Source of the DNA: Bacteroides caecigallinarum
GTDB lineage: Bacteria; Bacteroidota; Bacteroidia; Bacteroidales; Bacteroidaceae
DNA length: 55,077 nt
Reading direction: 5' to 3'
NCBI RefSeq assembly: GCF_021530995.1
Contig: NZ_JADYTF010000007.1
Coordinates: forward strand, 1 to 55,077
Positions 1,088-9,201 of this stretch are shown one piece after another (position 1 is the stretch's first letter; the number at the start of each line of letters is the position of its first letter). Below the pieces are notes generated by a model, which saw only the letters and a program-made list of their open reading frames with translations, had not been told where the DNA came from and did no database searches. The position numbers and the translations under genes were made by a program.

Positions 1088-2278
1088 ATGGAAATTAAAG
1101 GTAAAGTACATTACGTAGGTGTGAACGACCGCACCAAAGCATTGTTCGAAAATCTTTGGCCGTTGCCATACGGCGTGTCATACAACTCTTATCTGATAGC
1201 AGATGATGAGATGGTGGCATTGGTGGATACAGTTGATGTTGCATTCTTCGAAGTATATCTGAAGAAAATCCGCAGCATTATCGGCGACCGTAAAATCAAT
1301 TATCTTATTATAAACCACATGGAACCTGACCACTCAGGCTCTATCGCTCTTATCAAACAGTATTATCCTGAAATCGTTCTTGTAGGAAACAAGAAGACTT
1401 TCGAAATGGTGGAAGGATATTATGGTGTGACTGGCGACCGCTATGTGGTAAATGACGGTGACTTCCTGAAACTTGGTTATCATAACCTCCGTTTCTATCT
1501 GGTTCCTATGGTTCACTGGCCTGAAACAATGGTTACATACGATGAGACTGACGGAATCCTGTTTGCTGGAGATGCTTTCGGATGTTTCGGAGCTTTGAAC
1601 GGTGGATGCATCGACAGGAATATCAATACAGATATCTATTGGAACGAAATGCGCCGTTACTATGCTAACATCGTTGGTAAGTTCGGAAATCCTGTACAGA
1701 AGGCTTTGCAGAAACTTGGCGGATTGACTATCAACACTATCTGTTCTACTCATGGACCTGTTTGGGAAGAAAAGATTCCTCAGGTTATCGATATGTACGA
1801 CAAGATGAGCCGTTACGAAGCTGAAGAAGGTGTTGTGATAGCATACGGAACTATGTACGGCAATACAGAGGAACTGGCTGAGGCAATTGCTGAAGAACTG
1901 AGCCGTCAGGGTATCAAGAATATCATCATGCACAACGTATCTCACACTCATCATTCATACATCCTGGCTGACGTGTTCAAGTACAAAGGTCTTATTGTGG
2001 GATGTACTACATACAACATGAACCTTTATCCTGAAATGGAATCGCTGTTGAGCAAGATAGCTGCCCGCGAAGTGAAGAACCGTGTGATGGGCTACTTCGG
2101 TTCATATACTTGGGCAAGTGCAGCAGTGAAGAAGATTGGCGAATACACTGAAAAGCTGAAGTTCGAGGTTGTAGGCAACCCTGTAGAAATGAAGCAGGCT
2201 ATGAAGCAGGACAACTATGCTCAGGCAAAAGAACTTGCAAAGGCTATGGCTGACCGTCTGAAAGCTGACAGAAAGTAA
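1088..2278 (+). CDS. fprA: Flavodiiron protein (FprA-type flavoprotein)
   Basis: Cytoplasmic flavodiiron protein, a family that reduces O2 to water or NO to N2O using reduced rubredoxin or flavin partners. The N-terminal metallo-beta-lactamase domain (about 1-245) keeps all seven diiron ligand positions: His77, Glu79, Asp81 and His82 in NHMEPDHSGS, His143 in VHWPETM, Asp162 in AGDAFG and His222 in STHGP. The C-terminal flavodoxin domain starts near residue 249 with the FMN-binding loop AYGTMYGNTEE. The length of 396 residues is typical, with no extra C-terminal rubredoxin. In an anaerobe the likely role is oxygen detoxification; NO reduction cannot be excluded. It sits 20 bases after the radical SAM gene and ends before a bidirectional hairpin. 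Confidence 0.93.
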   Translation: MEIKGKVHYVGVNDRTKALFENLWPLPYGVSYNSYLIADDEMVALVDTVDVAFFEVYLKKIRSIIGDRKINYLIINHMEPDHSGSIALIKQYYPEIVLVGNKKTFEMVEGYYGVTGDRYVVNDGDFLKLGYHNLRFYLVPMVHWPETMVTYDETDGILFAGDAFGCFGALNGGCIDRNINTDIYWNEMRRYYANIVGKFGNPVQKALQKLGGLTINTICSTHGPVWEEKIPQVIDMYDKMSRYEAEEGVVIAYGTMYGNTEELAEAIAEELSRQGIKNIIMHNVSHTHHSYILADVFKYKGLIVGCTTYNMNLYPEMESLLSKIAAREVKNRVMGYFGSYTWASAAVKKIGEYTEKLKFEVVGNPVEMKQAMKQDNYAQAKELAKAMADRLKADRK

Positions 2279-2305
2279 TCGGGCTTTATTGATATAATAA
2301 GTAAG

Positions 2306-2343
2306 CAGGCTGTTACGTGAGTTTTGGTACATGTAACAGCCTG
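2306..2343. terminator. Bidirectional terminator hairpin
   Basis: Perfect 11-bp inverted repeat (CAGGCTGTTAC at 2306-2316, GTAACAGCCTG at 2333-2343) between two convergent genes, the flavodiiron gene and tyrA. T-rich sequence follows on the plus strand. Confidence 0.75.
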
Positions 2344-2351
2344 TTAATTTA

Positions 2352-3125
2352 TTATTTTATATTGTTTCGAATCTTGCTAAGATAGGCATGCATGCCCTCG
2401 GCATCCTTACGGCTTATTATGTCAAGAAGCTCATTCAGTTCGGTACGTATTCCTTCCACCTGTTTCGGGGTACGTGGGTTGAACAGGATTTCCTGAAGCA
2501 GATAATCGTCTTCGTTGAGTACTCCCTTCGCTATTGCCATGTGGCGTTTGAATGTTGTACCGGGGGCGTCCTGATGTTTCATTACTGCAGCAAACACGAA
2601 TGTAGAAACGAACGGTATTGACAGTGAATATGCTACAGTATCGTCATGCTCATCGAATGTATATTCGAAAATGTTGAGTCCAAGTCTTTGGTAAAGGTCC
2701 TTGAAGAACACTTTGCCCAGACAGTCGCCTTCCTTTATTATTATGGCATTCTCTGTACTCAGCTGGTCGAGGTTGGCAAATGTAGGACCGAACATAGGGT
2801 GGGTTGATACATATCTGAAACCGCTGTTGTCGTAGAATTCCTGAAGACCGGTCTTTACTGATGCAATGTCGCTTATGATACAGTCCTGCGGAATTACCGG
2901 CAGTACCTGATGGAACGCGTCGAGTGTGTATTTCACTGTAGCTGCATTTATTACGAGCTCTGGTCTGAACTCTTTAATCTCATCAAGAGATGTAAAGCGC
3001 TGGCAGTTGTACATGAAGCGCAGGTTCTGGGGTTTTACATCGTAAACTGCTACTTCGTGGTCGAAACTTAATACATCGGTAAAGAAGGAGCCCATTTTTC
3101 CGGCTCCCAATATTAATATACGCAT
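2352..3125 (-). CDS. tyrA: Prephenate dehydrogenase
   Basis: Converts prephenate to 4-hydroxyphenylpyruvate with NAD(P)+, the tyrosine branch of aromatic synthesis. The N-terminus has a Rossmann fold with the dinucleotide loop GAGKMG at residues 7-12, followed by the STHPMFGP segment (around residues 106-113) typical of the prephenate-binding site. At 257 residues it is short and has no ACT or chorismate mutase domain, so feedback control by tyrosine must come from elsewhere. It is the last gene of the four-gene operon, 12 bases after the DAHP synthase/chorismate mutase gene, and shares the attenuator upstream of pheA. Confidence 0.88.
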   Translation of the reverse strand: MRILILGAGKMGSFFTDVLSFDHEVAVYDVKPQNLRFMYNCQRFTSLDEIKEFRPELVINAATVKYTLDAFHQVLPVIPQDCIISDIASVKTGLQEFYDNSGFRYVSTHPMFGPTFANLDQLSTENAIIIKEGDCLGKVFFKDLYQRLGLNIFEYTFDEHDDTVAYSLSIPFVSTFVFAAVMKHQDAPGTTFKRHMAIAKGVLNEDDYLLQEILFNPRTPKQVEGIRTELNELLDIISRKDAEGMHAYLSKIRNNIK

Positions 3126-3137
3126 CGTCTGATATTT

Positions 3138-4205
3138 TTATTTGTTTATTATTTCCATCTGCTGACGTACACTTTCTTCGTGTATGGCTTCGAATACATG
3201 TTTTACAAATTCAGAATCCATTCCGCATAATGAGCCTTGTGCTCCGCGCTTGTCGAGAATTTCATTGTAACGTCCTGTCTGGAGGATTGTCATATTGTGT
3301 TCTTTCTTGAATGTTCCGATTTCGCGGCATACGCGCATACGTTTTGCCATAATCTCCATCAGTTCGTTGTCGCATTCATCAATCTGACGTCTCAACTCGC
3401 TAAGGCTTTCTGTAGTCTGGTGTTCTTTACGGATAACCAGCAGATTCAGGATATAGTCGAGAACGTCAGGAGTTACCTGCTGTGACGCGTCGCTCCATGC
3501 ACAATCAGGGTTGCAGTGTGATTCTACTATCAGTCCGTCGAAACCTAGGTCCATAGCCTGCTGGCAGAGTGATGCGATGAGTTCACGCTTTCCGCCGATA
3601 TGGCTTGGGTCGCACAGGATAGGGAGGTTAGGAATGCGTCTTCTCAGTTCGATAGGGATATGCCATTGTGGAAGATTGCGGTAAATTTTCTTGTCGTATG
3701 ATGAGAAGCCGCGGTGGATTGCTCCGAGGCGTTTGATACCTGCATTGTTGATTCTCTCCATCGCTCCGATCCATAGTTCCAGATCAGGGTTTACCGGATT
3801 TTTTACATATACAGGAATGTCAACTCCCTTCAGGGCGTCTGCAATCTCCTGTACAGCAAACGGATTGGCTGTGGTACGCGCACCTATCCACAATATATCT
3901 ATACCGGCTTTAAGGCATTCGTAAACATGCTTTGCTGTTGCAACCTCTGTAGAAACATACATGCCGGTCTCTTTCTTCACTTCTTTAAGCCATGCCAGAC
4001 CGTCAACTCCAACACCTTCGAAGCCTCCCGGTTTGGTACGTGGTTTCCATATTCCGGCGCGGAAAATTTTTGTGCCGTTGTTAGCCAGCTGCTTTGCTGT
4101 GCTCATTACCTGTTCTTCTGTTTCTGCGCTGCAAGGTCCTGCAATTATCAAAGGACGTTCTTCTGATACGCCTTCCAGTCTGATAGGTTCTAATTCGAGT
4201 GCCAT
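3138..4205 (-). CDS. DAHP synthase / chorismate mutase fusion
   Basis: Bifunctional enzyme of the shikimate pathway. Residues about 1-260 form a 3-deoxy-7-phosphoheptulonate synthase of the short KDPG-like type, with the AGPCSAE motif at 22-28, KPRTKPGGF near 53-61 and a DPSHIGGKRE segment. Residues about 270-350 form an AroQ-type all-helical chorismate mutase (LRRQIDECDNELMEIMAKR, then KKEHN). The fused order, synthase then mutase, is common in Bacteroidetes; the mutase often also serves as the allosteric domain in such fusions. The enzyme condenses PEP with erythrose 4-phosphate and converts chorismate to prephenate, feeding the flanking pheA and tyrA products. It starts 37 bases after the aminotransferase gene. 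Confidence 0.92.
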   Translation of the reverse strand: MALELEPIRLEGVSEERPLIIAGPCSAETEEQVMSTAKQLANNGTKIFRAGIWKPRTKPGGFEGVGVDGLAWLKEVKKETGMYVSTEVATAKHVYECLKAGIDILWIGARTTANPFAVQEIADALKGVDIPVYVKNPVNPDLELWIGAMERINNAGIKRLGAIHRGFSSYDKKIYRNLPQWHIPIELRRRIPNLPILCDPSHIGGKRELIASLCQQAMDLGFDGLIVESHCNPDCAWSDASQQVTPDVLDYILNLLVIRKEHQTTESLSELRRQIDECDNELMEIMAKRMRVCREIGTFKKEHNMTILQTGRYNEILDKRGAQGSLCGMDSEFVKHVFEAIHEESVRQQMEIINK

Positions 4206-4242
4206 AGTTGTAATCTTTTAGTAGTTATTTGTATTTGTTTTT

Positions 4243-5427
4243 TTATTTCATATTCTTTATTCTCTCAAGTGCTTCTGCCAGCTTTTCTTCTTTGGCGCAA
4301 AGCGAAATGCGGATATATCTCTTTCCGTTGCTTCCGAAGATGAATCCCGGTGTGATGAATACTCTTGCCTGGTGCAGAACTTTTTCTGTCAGTTCCTCTA
4401 CATCGTTGTATGATTCAGGTATCTTGCCCCAGAGGAACATTCCCACCTGATTATGGTCGAATGTACATCCCAGTTCGTTCATTATTTCTTCGGCAAGCTT
4501 TCTGCGACGGCTGTAAACATTGAAGTTGGCTTCTTCATGCCATTCGGCACTGTTGTTATATGCTTGTGCCGCTGCGAGCTGCAATGGACGGAAAGTTCCG
4601 GAGTCAATATTACTCTTGATTTTCAGAATCCACTGTACGAAAGTGGCGTTAGTAGCCAGCATTCCCACACGCCAGCCTGGCATGTTGTGGCTCTTACTCA
4701 TGGAGTTGAATTCTATACAGCATTCTTTTGCTCCCGGAACATTGAGTATGCTTATCGGTTTTTTATTGAGTATGAAGCTGTATGGGTTGTCGTTCACTAC
4801 TACGATGTTGTGTCGGCGTGCGAAATCAACAATCTTTTCGTAAAGTTCCATTGTGGCATTTGCCCCTGTAGGCATATTAGGATAGTTGGTCCACATGATT
4901 TTCACTCCTGTAAGATCCATCTTCTCCAGTTCGTCGAAATCAGGCTGCCAGTTGTTGTCCTCGCGAAGGTTGTAGTTGATTATTTCGCTTCCAAGTATTT
5001 TGTTCAGCGATGTATAGGTAGGGTAGCCTGGATTTGGAACCAGAACCTTGTCGCCCGGATTAACCAAGGCCAGTGTCACGTGCAGAATACCTTCCTTTGA
5101 ACCGATAAGAGGCTGTATCTCTGTGGCTGGGTCGAGATCTACATTATACCATCTTTTATACCAGTCTGCCATGGCTTTTCTCAGTTCAGGTATTCCCACT
5201 GTAGGCTGGTAGCCGTGAGCATCAGGTTTCTTGGCATTTTCGCAAAGGACATTGATCGTTTCTTCTGATGGCGGCATGTCAGGGCTGCCTATTCCGAGGC
5301 TTATCACGTTTTTACCTTCGGCATTCATCTGTGCCACTTCCTTCAGTTTTCTGCTGAAATAGTATTCGCTGACATTTGCCAGTCTGTCGGCCGGCTGTAT
5401 CTTATATTGTTGATTCTCCTTCTGCAT
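4243..5427 (-). CDS. PLP aminotransferase of the aromatic operon
   Basis: Fold type I PLP-dependent aminotransferase of 394 residues. The PLP lysine is in SMSKSHNMPGWR, the aspartate that binds the ring nitrogen in VVNDNPYSF, and the carboxylate-binding arginine near the C-terminus in RYIRISL. Relatives are annotated as aspartate or LL-diaminopimelate aminotransferases. Its place between pheA and the DAHP synthase suggests that it makes phenylalanine and tyrosine from their keto acids, or acts on prephenate; the sequence alone does not separate these. The start overlaps the end of pheA by 26 bases, indicating translational coupling. Confidence 0.85.
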   Translation of the reverse strand: MQKENQQYKIQPADRLANVSEYYFSRKLKEVAQMNAEGKNVISLGIGSPDMPPSEETINVLCENAKKPDAHGYQPTVGIPELRKAMADWYKRWYNVDLDPATEIQPLIGSKEGILHVTLALVNPGDKVLVPNPGYPTYTSLNKILGSEIINYNLREDNNWQPDFDELEKMDLTGVKIMWTNYPNMPTGANATMELYEKIVDFARRHNIVVVNDNPYSFILNKKPISILNVPGAKECCIEFNSMSKSHNMPGWRVGMLATNATFVQWILKIKSNIDSGTFRPLQLAAAQAYNNSAEWHEEANFNVYSRRRKLAEEIMNELGCTFDHNQVGMFLWGKIPESYNDVEELTEKVLHQARVFITPGFIFGSNGKRYIRISLCAKEEKLAEALERIKNMK

Positions 5428-6244
5428 ATTCTCCTAAAATTTTAAGTGCTTTTGTAAGTGGTGTAACAGCGTCTATAGACTGTTTGTATCTTAAATAATC
5501 ATTGAACATTACGTCAACGTAGAACATATATTCCCATTCTCGTCCGATGATCGGCAGTGACTGTATCTTTGTGAGGTTTATCTTATAGAATGAGAAGATT
5601 GACAATACCTGTGAGAGGCTTCCTTCGCTGTGTGGGAGCGAGAATACTATGTTTGCCTTGTTCACTTTAGAGCGGTCTTTCAGTTCGTCGGCCAGCCATG
5701 GGTTGCTGATGACGAGGAAACGTGTGAAGTTGTGCTTGTTTGTTTCTATTCCTTCTTCCAGGATTTTCATGTCATAAAGTCCGGCAGCGTATTTGGAACA
5801 GATGGCTGCATGTCCTCTCAGATTGTTTTTTCTGATATTTTCTGCACTACCTGCTGTATCTTCCGTTTCTACTACTTTCAGTTCCGGATGGTTGTGCAGG
5901 AAGTCGCGGCACTGAGCCAAAGCAACCGGGTGTGAGTTTACTTCTGTGAGGTCTTCCCAGTTATCCTCCGGCAAACACATGATGCTGTGGCTTATTCTGA
6001 GTTTGTGTTCTCCTATGATAGTAGCACCACTTTCACGAAGCAGCTCATAGTTGTGCAACAAGCTTCCCGCTATTGTGTTTTCTATTGCAATCACGCCTAT
6101 CACGTCGCTGTCCTTCTTCATCTGTGCAAACACTTCCTCAAATGTGTTGCAACAAATAAGTTCTATCTCTTCATCTTTAAAATATTTGTGGGCAGCTATG
6201 TCGTGATACGAGCCCTTTACTCCTTGAATTGCTATCTTTCTCAT
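5402..6244 (-). CDS. pheA: Prephenate dehydratase
   Basis: Converts prephenate to phenylpyruvate, the committed step to phenylalanine. The catalytic domain (about 1-185) carries the ENTIAGSL segment at 55-62 and the diagnostic TRF motif at 174-176 (HNFTRFLVIS). A C-terminal ACT domain spans about 197-265. The usual regulatory ESRP motif reads QSLP here (228-231), so feedback by phenylalanine may differ from the textbook enzyme. No chorismate mutase domain is fused; that activity lies in the downstream DAHP synthase protein. It is the first structural gene of the operon and begins 16 bases after the attenuator's T tract. Confidence 0.93.
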   Translation of the reverse strand: MRKIAIQGVKGSYHDIAAHKYFKDEEIELICCNTFEEVFAQMKKDSDVIGVIAIENTIAGSLLHNYELLRESGATIIGEHKLRISHSIMCLPEDNWEDLTEVNSHPVALAQCRDFLHNHPELKVVETEDTAGSAENIRKNNLRGHAAICSKYAAGLYDMKILEEGIETNKHNFTRFLVISNPWLADELKDRSKVNKANIVFSLPHSEGSLSQVLSIFSFYKINLTKIQSLPIIGREWEYMFYVDVMFNDYLRYKQSIDAVTPLTKALKILGEYAEGESTI

Positions 6245-6260
6245 CTTTATTTATACCATT

Positions 6261-6294
6261 AAAAAAAATCCCGCCTCATACAGAAGCGGGATTT
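6261..6294 (-). terminator. Attenuator terminator before pheA
   Basis: Read on the minus strand, the arms AAATCCCGCTTC and GAGGCGGGATTT form a 12-bp stem (one T-G pair) with the loop TGTAT, running into eight T residues. It ends 16 bases before the pheA ATG, so it must be bypassed for the aromatic operon to be expressed. Together with the Phe/Tyr-rich leader ORF upstream it forms an attenuator. Confidence 0.88.
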
Positions 6295-6352
6295 CGTTAT
6301 TTTATTTTGTATTGATTATCTTACGTATCTGGCACATACGACTTCCCGCTTC
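6283..6352 (-). promoter_or_regulatory. Antiterminator pairing of the phe attenuator
   Basis: GAAGCGGGA (6352-6344), inside the leader ORF just after the Phe/Tyr codons, is a perfect 9-base complement of TCCCGCTTC (6291-6283), the 5' arm of the terminator. A ribosome stalled on Phe or Tyr codons would leave the first segment free to pair with the second and block the terminator. A ribosome that translates through would cover the first segment and let the terminator form. Confidence 0.8.
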
Positions 6353-6414
6353 ACTTCATTGCTAAAGTAAAAGTAATAAAAGAAAAAGAAGAAATATGTA
6401 GCGAATGTTGTCAT
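6316..6414 (-). CDS. Phe/Tyr-rich leader peptide (pheL-like)
   Basis: A 32-residue ORF with ATG at 6414-6412 and TAA at 6318-6316. It starts MTTFAT and then has an unbroken run, YFFFFFYYFYF (residues 7-17), followed by a charged tail ending ARYVR. It holds eight Phe and five Tyr codons in all, with both Phe codons (TTC, TTT) used. It lies about 25 bases downstream of a predicted transcription start and upstream of a terminator before pheA. These are the parts of ribosome-mediated attenuation, as in enterobacterial pheL, though the peptide is not recognisably homologous. The mix of Phe and Tyr codons fits an operon making both amino acids. No Shine-Dalgarno is visible, as usual in this phylum. 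Confidence 0.88.
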   Translation of the reverse strand: MTTFATYFFFFFYYFYFSNEVKREVVCARYVR

Positions 6415-6442
6415 ATAATACTTTTTGTTATCGTTTCCAGTG

Positions 6443-6471
6443 CAAATGTAATACTTTTCTTGAAAAAACAA
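6443..6471 (-). promoter_or_regulatory. Promoter of the aromatic operon
   Basis: On the minus strand, TACATTTG (6450-6443) matches the -7 consensus, with TTG (6471-6469) 18 bases upstream. The predicted start leaves about 25 bases before the leader peptide ATG at 6414. Confidence 0.65.
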
Positions 6472-6570
6472 GAATATCATGAAAATTTTCTTCAAAATTT
6501 TTAATTTTAGAGCATTATTACCTTATTTTGTAATGCTGGTTTAATATTTATAACACATTGAATAATCATT

Positions 6571-7740
6571 ATGAAGTATAATTTTGATGAATTGATTGAC
6601 AGAAGAAATACAAACGCTGTCAAGATTGACGAAATGAAAGATATATGGGATAGGAATGATCTTATCCCGATGTGGGTAGCCGATATGGATTTTGCTACAC
6701 CCGATTTTGTGGTTGATGCTGTAAAGAAACGTTGCGAACATCCTGTATTCGGATACACGGCAAAGTCGGACGGTTATTATAACTCTATCATAAACTGGGT
6801 TAAGGCTCGTTATGGTATGGAGATTGAGAAAAAACACATCAATTACGTTCCCGGTATAGTTGCCGGTTTGGGAATGGCATTGAATTGTTTCACCTCTCCT
6901 GGCGATAAGGTTATTATAATGCCGCCCGTTTATCATCCTTTTGCATGGCTCACTAAGAGAAATAACAGGCAGTTGGTGGAGTGTCCTATGATATTTGAGA
7001 ATGGTGAGTACCGAATGAATCTCGAACTTCTTAGAAGCATAAAGAAAGGAGTGAGGGTACTTATTCTCTGTAATCCTCACAATCCGGGTGGGGTAGTATG
7101 GAAAAGGGAGGAACTTGAAGAACTGGCTGAGATTTGTGCTGAGGATAATATTTTGGTGTTTTCTGATGAGATACATGCCGACTTGACGCTTCCTCCACAT
7201 AAGCATCTTCCTTTTGCAATGGTATCAGAGAAAGCGAAAAAGAATTCGGTAACATTTATGGCTCCAAGTAAGACATTCAATATGCCCGGTGTTGCAGCAT
7301 CGCATACCATAATATATAATGATGCCTTGCGTGGAAAATTTGAGACTTACCTTGAAGCAGGTGAGTTGAATGCGGGACATGTGTTTGCCTTTCCAGCTGT
7401 TGAGGCTGCGTATTCCAACGGGACTGAGTGGCTCGACCAGTGCCTGGATTATATTCAGGGAAATATAGATTATGTTGACTCTTTCCTGAAAGAAAATGCT
7501 CCTAAAATAAAGGCTATACGCCCTATGGCTTCGTATCTGATATGGCTTGACTGTCGTGAACTTGGGTTGAACCATGAAGAATTGAATTCATTCTTTGTTG
7601 ATAAGGCGGGACTTGCTCTGAATGATGGAGAAATGTTTGGTCGTGAGGGTGCCGGATTTATGAGAATGAATGTTGGTACGCAGCGTTCGGTAGTAGAGCT
7701 TGCGATGAATCAATTGGCTGAGGCTTATAAAACTTTATGA
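6571..7740 (+). CDS. PatB/MalY-type C-S lyase
   Basis: PLP-dependent fold type I enzyme of 389 residues, PatB/MalY branch, which cleaves C-S bonds in cystathionine and cysteine-like substrates (cystathionine beta-lyase type). The N-terminal signature PMWVADMDFATPD is characteristic. Also visible are CNPHNPGG, FSDEIHADL (Asp for the PLP nitrogen), the PLP lysine in APSKTFNMPG and a C-terminal MRMNVGTQR arginine for the substrate carboxylate. Likely roles are methionine synthesis or cysteine turnover. It stands alone between the aromatic operon (divergent) and a strong terminator. Confidence 0.86.
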   Translation: MKYNFDELIDRRNTNAVKIDEMKDIWDRNDLIPMWVADMDFATPDFVVDAVKKRCEHPVFGYTAKSDGYYNSIINWVKARYGMEIEKKHINYVPGIVAGLGMALNCFTSPGDKVIIMPPVYHPFAWLTKRNNRQLVECPMIFENGEYRMNLELLRSIKKGVRVLILCNPHNPGGVVWKREELEELAEICAEDNILVFSDEIHADLTLPPHKHLPFAMVSEKAKKNSVTFMAPSKTFNMPGVAASHTIIYNDALRGKFETYLEAGELNAGHVFAFPAVEAAYSNGTEWLDQCLDYIQGNIDYVDSFLKENAPKIKAIRPMASYLIWLDCRELGLNHEELNSFFVDKAGLALNDGEMFGREGAGFMRMNVGTQRSVVELAMNQLAEAYKTL

Positions 7741-8941: not shown

Positions 8942-9014
8942 TACACCCTCAGGGATTCGAACCCTGGACCCACTGATTAAGAGTCAGTTGCTCTACCAAC
9001 TGAGCTAAGAGTGC
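8942..9014 (-). tRNA. tRNA-Lys (anticodon CTT)
   Basis: 73-base cloverleaf with D-arm AGCTCAGTTGGTAGAGC, anticodon stem-loop ACTGA-CTCTTAA-TCAGT (anticodon CTT) and T-arm CAGGGTTCGAATCCCTG. The acceptor stem pairs GCACTCT with AGGGTGT and the discriminator is A. CCA is not encoded. Confidence 0.95.
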
Positions 9015-9029
9015 ATTGCCTGTTGTTTG

Positions 9030-9101
9030 AGGTTCCTGGCGGATTCGAACCGCCGTACACGGTTTTGCAGACCGCTGACTAAGCCACTCATCCAAGGAAC
9101 C
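9030..9101 (-). tRNA. tRNA-Cys (anticodon GCA), copy 2
   Basis: 72-base cloverleaf with anticodon loop CTGCAAA (GCA), T-arm GGCGGTTCGAATCCGCC and acceptor GGTTCCT/AGGAACC. The discriminator is U, the known identity element for bacterial tRNA-Cys. CCA is not encoded. The sequence is identical to the other copy at 9130-9201. Confidence 0.95.
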
Positions 9102-9129
9102 GTAGCAATCAATTTTTTCAGTAAAGTGG

Positions 9130-9201
9130 AGGTTCCTGGCGGATTCGAACCGCCGTACACGGTTTTGCAGACCGCTGACTAAGCCACTCATCCAAGGAAC
9201 C
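9130..9201 (-). tRNA. tRNA-Cys (anticodon GCA), copy 1
   Basis: Identical 72 bases to the copy at 9030-9101, separated from it by 28 unrelated bases. It is the first gene of the three-tRNA transcript. Confidence 0.95.

Follow-up and report, generated by a model that had tools for sequence, protein, structure and literature searches.

We identified upstream of the pheA operon of Bacteroides caecigallinarum a leader which, with a probability of about 0.9, is an attenuator of the trp/phe type, in which ribosomes would control transcription in response to phenylalanine and tyrosine together. This reading is based on the anatomy of the leader, its conservation, the co-variation of its strands 2 and 3 and the geometry of the ribosome in a folding model. 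The leader is located on the minus strand of the stretch of DNA analysed here (55,077 nucleotides, referred to as the window) and precedes four genes, among which are those for DAHP synthase and for enzymes of both the phenylalanine and the tyrosine branch.

Anatomy of the pheA leader and its operon

The elements of the leader and the genes behind it are the following:

6443..6450, minus strand: promoter -7 element TACATTTG, TAnnTTTG type, read from the sequence
6316..6414, minus strand: leader ORF MTTFATYFFFFFYYFYFSNEVKREVVCARYVR, 32 codons plus stop, read directly and kept in relatives
6394..6399, minus strand: strand 1, ACATAT, at the start of the Phe/Tyr run (fold; own-versus-swapped pairing among loci)
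6364..6396, minus strand: control codons YFFFFFYYFYF, 11 consecutive Phe/Tyr codons (translation and genome-wide run scan)
6344..6352, minus strand: strand 2, antiterminator segment GAAGCGGGA, read directly; co-varies elsewhere with the terminator arm
6334..6339, minus strand: GTATGT, partner of strand 1 (sequence, fold and own-versus-swapped pairing)
6283..6291, minus strand: strand 3, TCCCGCTTC, 5' arm of the terminator and partner of strand 2 (fold; co-variation)
6265..6295, minus strand: intrinsic terminator hairpin of 13 pairs with a 5-base loop (fold and terminator scan)
6261..6268, minus strand: T8 tract, read directly
5402..6244, minus strand: pheA, prephenate dehydratase (PF00800, E 3.5e-56)
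4243..5427, minus strand: class I/II aminotransferase (PF00155, E 2.4e-63)
3138..4205, minus strand: DAHP synthase-chorismate mutase fusion (PF00793 and PF01817)
2352..3125, minus strand: tyrA, prephenate dehydrogenase (PF02153, E 8.4e-09)

The leader ORF starts with an ATG at 6414 and its stop codon ends at 6316. It is preceded by TACATTTG, which we take to be a promoter element of the Bacteroidota TAnnTTTG type. Strand 2 lies within the ORF, 11 bases 3' of the last Phe/Tyr codon, and is exactly complementary to strand 3 over 9 bases. Three to four residues of the T8 tract double as terminator stem, which leaves a free U tract of 4-5, and the ATG of pheA (6244) follows 16 bases past the last T. 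The first-pass annotation had described the promoter, the 32-codon leader with its run of 11 Phe/Tyr codons, the 9-base complement, the T8 tract and the distance to pheA, all of which are borne out by direct reading. The terminator that it had given as 12 bp is present as a hairpin, but comprises 13 pairs when the closing G-T pair is counted.

The predicted fold of the leader RNA was matched or bettered by one of 200 shuffled sequences. A terminator scan of positions 2200-6600 yielded four sites against 4.1 expected from shuffles, so finding a site in this region means little by itself. The pheA-leader terminator, with its 13 pairs, is the sole site on the minus strand, and the other three have 5 pairs and are on the plus strand. 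An ordinary terminator of an upstream gene was rejected, since the gene next door (6571-7740) is on the plus strand and runs in the opposite direction. A run of nine Phe/Tyr codons occurs at this leader alone in the 3.73-Mb genome; seven-codon runs were found at four other places, none of them leader-like. Dinucleotide shuffling of the upstream regions of the genus set (defined below) gave at least nine Phe/Tyr codons within 12 codons in one of 2,300 shuffles (none of 2,280 in an earlier run). Based on the genome scan and the shuffles, a chance run in AT-rich DNA was rejected as well. An Rfam search of the whole window at gathering scores returned three tRNA matches and no riboswitch or T-box, and identity of the leader with either of the latter was therefore rejected. 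The three tRNA genes lie in a row at 8942-9201 on the minus strand, and two of them score alike.

The four genes of the operon are closely spaced, with one overlap and otherwise gaps of less than 40 bases. The top NCBIfam match of pheA is a prephenate dehydratase (under its cut-off) and the top matches of tyrA are prephenate dehydrogenases (under their cut-offs). Joint control of the four genes, as proposed in the first-pass annotation, fits this gene order.

From this layout we infer transcription start, leader translation, stalling, sensing of both amino acids and read-through as the steps of the following model. RNA polymerase would start near 6436, and a ribosome would follow on the leader ORF. 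With ample charged tRNA-Phe and tRNA-Tyr, the ribosome would clear the 11-codon run and get to the stop codon, where it would cover or have passed strand 2 (GAAGCGGGA); strand 3 (TCCCGCTTC) would then pair with strand 4, and the terminator formed in this way would halt transcription before pheA. Upon shortage of either charged tRNA, the ribosome would stall in the run and leave strand 2 free to pair with strand 3 once the latter is made. The predicted outcome is read-through and transcription of pheA, the aminotransferase, DAHP synthase/chorismate mutase and tyrA.

Spread of the leader and the amino acids it probably reads

The occurrence of the leader was surveyed in four sets of pheA loci. 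The genus set (genus and near kin) contains several copies of some genomes and had 86 distinct upstream sequences before locus L187 joined; its 115 loci became 114 when L120 (37 nt of upstream DNA) was left out, and again 115 with L187. The order set (other Bacteroidales, 67 loci) consists of the 67 matching genomes besides the window's own, with L188 and L189 added and with L043 (contig ends inside the gene) and L149 (only 15 nt upstream) excluded. The set for the rest of the class (59 loci) is without G208 and L251, which are partial matches, and without G455, a genome of the same class from the phylum search. Outside the class, 26 of the 95 matching genomes were examined, namely the three best-scoring ones and 23 chosen to spread over families.

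A leader was scored when a short ORF before pheA contained at least six Phe/Tyr codons within some stretch of 12 codons, or at least eight at the stricter threshold. At the lower threshold, leaders were found at all 115 loci of the genus set, at 60 of 67 in the order set (seven without), at 41 of 59 in the rest of the class (18 without) and at three of the 26 loci examined outside the class. Dinucleotide shuffles reached this threshold in 3.6, 6.6, 6.6 and 1.3% of cases (genus, order, class and outside, respectively). The stricter threshold retained 115, 48, 27 and 3 loci, with 0.04, 0.2, 0.08 and 0% of the shuffles. A TAnnTTTG element was present at most 82 nt before the leader start at 111 of 112 genus-set loci and at 57 of 92 other loci, compared to 5-6% of mononucleotide shuffles. 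A terminator-like hairpin followed the leader at 215 of 219 leader loci (a count without shuffle control), and the median distance from the terminator to pheA was 30 nt. Within the genus the peptide is also conserved 3' of the Phe/Tyr run (SNEVKRE). Beyond the genus the leaders, which range from 10 to 42 codons, are alike in little but their Phe/Tyr content, and the nucleotide sequence of the run drifts.

Several individual loci deserve mention. The laboratory strain Phocaeicola vulgatus ATCC 8482 has the leader as well (L069). At ten loci (L136, L138, L146, L154, L170, L171, L174, L178, L194 and L219) leader and terminator are separated by more than 120 nt (at most 281) from the start that the alignment assigns to pheA, a gap that could fit an extra small gene or a second element. 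The three leaders outside the class (L214, L226 and L230) belong to the three best-scoring pheA genes there, the other 23 examined being without a leader, and each has a DAHP synthase match close by (for L230 at only 31% identity). They could be explained by transfer of the complete unit or by an origin further back in time. L193 and L199 contain short ORFs before pheA (MKLTQTYFWFYPASKREG and MKLTQTYFWFYPTLSTGG) with a YFWFY run; they stayed under the threshold and were counted as misses, but might be leaders whose short run includes a Trp codon.

The codons point to tyrosine being read alongside phenylalanine. All 114 leaders of the genus set have at least two Phe and at least two Tyr codons, and every one of them contains YFYF; among the other leaders, 87 of 93 have at least two codons of each kind. 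The genes behind the leader were surveyed in 41 operons, those of the window and of 40 hand-picked relatives, some of them chosen because they are without a leader. Of the 32 operons with a leader, 31 have a DAHP synthase gene no more than about 5 kb further downstream, as opposed to one of the nine leaderless operons (Fisher p 8e-7, uncorrected for phylogeny). The association is in line with a switch for the first enzyme common to both branches. L446 (G122, a genome of 1.2 Mb) has the complete pheA-aminotransferase-DAHP synthase-tyrA operon and no leader, a possible case of loss of control.

The alternative that survives best, which we nevertheless consider unlikely, is that phenylalanine alone is sensed and that the Tyr codons, one base apart from Phe codons (TTY to TAY), are tolerated neighbours of no regulatory weight. 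Phe codons do outnumber Tyr codons in both sets (736 to 514 and 471 to 332), the first gene of the operon encodes an enzyme of the phenylalanine branch, and the leader of enterobacterial pheA senses phenylalanine only. Moreover, the tyrA genes detected show no association with the leader, being present in 15 of 32 operons with it and in four of nine without it; the underlying tblastn search had one diverged query and a low sensitivity. The near-universal presence of Tyr codons, the YFYF motif throughout the genus set and the association with DAHP synthase, which both branches have in common, argue against this alternative and for sensing of both amino acids.

Of the 93 leaders outside the genus set, 27 carry a Trp codon in or beside the run, and tRNA-Trp may thus be sensed too in some families. 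The excess of Trp codons is small (27 of 1,501 in or near the run, 280 of 24,805, or 1.1%, in the DNA before the leaders and 20 of 3,002 in other frames), and the case for Trp sensing is weak.

Co-variation of the pairing strands and modeled position of the ribosome

For the pairing tests, the 101 loci with a terminator outside the genus set were reduced to 93 by removal of near-duplicates. Up to 45 bases after the run were paired with the 5' arm of the terminator, and the duplex energy with the locus' own arm was compared to that with swapped arms. The mean energy of strand 2 with its own strand 3 was -15.05 kcal/mol, against -9.7 kcal/mol for swapped arms (n = 93), and none of 20,000 permutations, which ignore phylogeny, was as low. 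The own arm was the best partner at 20 of 93 loci and within the best tenth at 62, a ranking to be expected with a CCCG core common to many arms. Control segments gave -4.9 kcal/mol with the own arm when taken before the leader (n = 93) and -1.3 kcal/mol when taken from the stretch that separates strand 2 from the terminator (n = 18). Among 60 representatives with few common 9-mers, a set in which the effect of phylogeny on the permutations is reduced, the values were -14.74 for own and -9.60 for swapped arms. Examples of strand 2/3 pairs are GGCAGGA/TCCTGCC (L039), GACCGGGA/TCCCGGTC (L040), CGAGGCTT/AAGCCTCG (L045) and GGGCTCAA/TTGAGCCC (L047). The alignment of relatives that the first-pass annotation had suggested as a check thus turned out in its favour: the leader ORF, the run and the complementarity are conserved, with changes on both sides of the pair. 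Pairing of strands 1 and 2, i.e., of the start of the run with the sequence after it, likewise showed a preference for the own locus (0 of 20,000 permutations). In the window locus this pairing is formed by ACATAT and GTATGT.

The median distance from the last Phe/Tyr codon to the start of the antiterminator segment behind it is 10 nt, and at 92 of 93 loci this segment reaches the zone from -33 to +15 nt around the end of the stop codon. A folding model was used in which the RNA is truncated before strand 4 and the ribosome leaves free only the RNA from 14 nt past the start of its A-site codon. When this codon belonged to the run, the predicted antiterminator fraction was 0.75 (mean of the locus maxima), compared to 0.15 when it was the stop codon. 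The difference between the two was at least 0.2 at 91 of 93 loci and at 110 of 112 in the genus set. At the window locus the fraction was 0.8 along the entire run and 0.0 at the stop, and over 91 loci the antiterminator was lost at a median of two codons past the last Phe/Tyr codon. This modeling suggests that the position of the ribosome would decide the structure of the leader. The trp/phe attenuator layout recognized in the first-pass annotation was confirmed for leader, antiterminator and terminator, and the folding model agrees with it as regards ribosomes in the run and at the stop codon.

The antiterminator is also predicted to form without a ribosome (0.61 on average and 0.80 at the window locus), and in the truncated RNA the 2:3 pairing beats the 1:2 pairing on average even in this state. 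An untranslated leader is therefore not predicted to terminate at equilibrium. Termination in the untranslated leader is part of the classic scheme, from which the present leader departs at equilibrium; kinetics could alter the outcome for RNA without a ribosome. The run state exceeded both the stop state and the no-ribosome state by 0.2 at only 23 of 93 loci and at 11 of 112 in the genus set.

The ready formation of the antiterminator in this state, together with the length and structure of the leader, would suit a premature terminator under another sensor, such as a riboswitch or an RNA-binding protein, with the ORF being incidental. We regard such a sensor as very unlikely. The window is without an Rfam riboswitch or T-box at gathering score, the codon run is common across families and keeps its Phe/Tyr content while its nucleotides drift, and the antiterminator begins directly behind the run, at the median distance given above. 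Less probable still is a function for the small hydrophobic peptide itself, with the hairpin as the ordinary terminator of a small RNA gene: conservation within the genus, including SNEVKRE behind the run, is in line with it, but other families share little besides Phe/Tyr content over a wide range of lengths, the 5' arm of the terminator co-varies with the segment after the run, and pheA follows closely behind the terminator.

Other amino-acid leaders and comparison with known systems

Leaders were also observed before other amino-acid operons. In the genome of the window, a His leader (MIFTTALHHHHHFLTK) followed by a 12-bp terminator precedes hisG (L291), an Ile/Val/Leu-rich leader (MKATNIIINLAVLHIIRVVVLEPRGEEGSCM) with a strong terminator precedes ilvD (L342), and a Trp leader (MRTSLVNTFFWWHHLQLQKS) with a terminator precedes the first trp gene (L396). 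The last of these matches the Bacteroid-trp family RF01692 with 51.8 bits (gathering score 49); trp gene names were inferred from position and a trpA match. In the same group of genomes, an ORF with a His run (at least four His in 12 codons) was found before hisG at 28 of 30 loci, an ORF rich in Ile/Val/Leu (at least seven in 12 codons; without shuffle control) before ilvD at 30 of 30, and an ORF with Trp-Trp before the first gene of the trp cluster at seven of seven. An ORF with at least eight Thr/Ile in 12 codons was not found before thrA at eight loci. Three of these eight (L403, L405 and L406) have a conserved G+C-rich block with the exact sequence GGGATGACCCC approximately 160-205 nt before thrA, and the regions upstream of thrA in L403-L406 gave no Rfam match at gathering score. 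The block is possibly another regulatory RNA.

Because his, ilv and trp leaders occur in the same group of genomes, ribosome-mediated attenuation looks common among amino-acid operons of the Bacteroidales. For the pheA leader we propose, at roughly even odds, an ancestral attenuator of the whole class Bacteroidia which integrates the charging levels of tRNA-Phe and tRNA-Tyr (and perhaps, in certain families, that of tRNA-Trp), sets the expression of DAHP synthase and both branches, and persisted while DAHP synthase remained part of the operon. If this is true, and with the his, ilv and trp leaders, ribosomes would trail polymerases closely enough for attenuation throughout the Bacteroidia. Attenuation needs a ribosome close behind the polymerase, and transcription-translation coupling in Bacteroidota thereby becomes testable, as does a mechanism for the control of phenylalanine and tyrosine synthesis in gut Bacteroidales.

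Among known families, the enterobacterial Phe_leader (RF01859) resembles the present leader in its leader peptide with Phe codons, its alternative hairpins and its terminator before pheA. It matches on the right strand and at the right place with 27.7 bits (E 0.015 for 501 bases), half of its gathering score of 55, and differs in that the operon described here holds both branches and DAHP synthase. Thr_leader reaches 28.7 bits at the pheA leader, about half its cut-off. Bacteroid-trp (RF01692), from Bacteroidetes, likewise attenuates an operon for an aromatic amino acid by means of a leader peptide, but has Trp codons and belongs to another operon; the 25 matches with E values up to 10 at 6150-6650 do not include it. 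With no Rfam model reaching its threshold, the pheA leader could be added to Rfam. As for reading more than one amino acid, the ilv and thr attenuators of E. coli are multivalent, for other amino acids and in other bacteria than here. The abstract of Vitreschak (2004) reportedly mentions Bacteroidetes/Chlorobi, so that an earlier prediction of a pheA attenuator in this group may exist. The leu/phe leader of Lactococcus lactis (RF01743), named in a table of PMC2864571, is a further precedent for more than one amino acid, again with other amino acids and in other bacteria.

The first-pass annotation had called classical attenuation in Bacteroidota little described, which is contradicted by Bacteroid-trp, given as one table row in the main text of Weinberg 2010 (PMC2864571), and by a paper on Flavobacterium psychrophilum (PMC9723704). 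The latter reports clues to leader peptides upstream of amino-acid operons and, before pheA, a structured element that is conserved in the family (Flavobacteriaceae) and has no Rfam match. This element and the leader described here are very probably one regulatory element in two different orders; the section describing the former is without codons, amino acids, co-variation or distribution beyond the family. In the part of the literature surveyed, and apart from this paper, no Phe/Tyr leader of Bacteroidota was met. ORFs reminiscent of leader peptides in general are mentioned in the transcriptome of B. thetaiotaomicron (PMC7366714, the part consulted). In the main texts consulted, no word starting with 'bacteroid' occurs in Naville and Gautheret (PMC2965389), 'phenylalanine' is absent from PMC4833913 and 'leader' is absent from PMC8305728, which deals with his genes. 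A pheA attenuator is thus not wholly new, with the Bacteroidetes trp leader in Rfam and the Flavobacterium pheA element in print. New here are the spread over the class, the evidence for pairing, the combination of two amino acids and the co-occurrence with DAHP synthase.

Enterobacteria use a separate Phe attenuator and TyrR control. One leader for two amino acids, placed before one operon with the first enzyme and both branches, would be a tidy alternative to this enterobacterial scheme.
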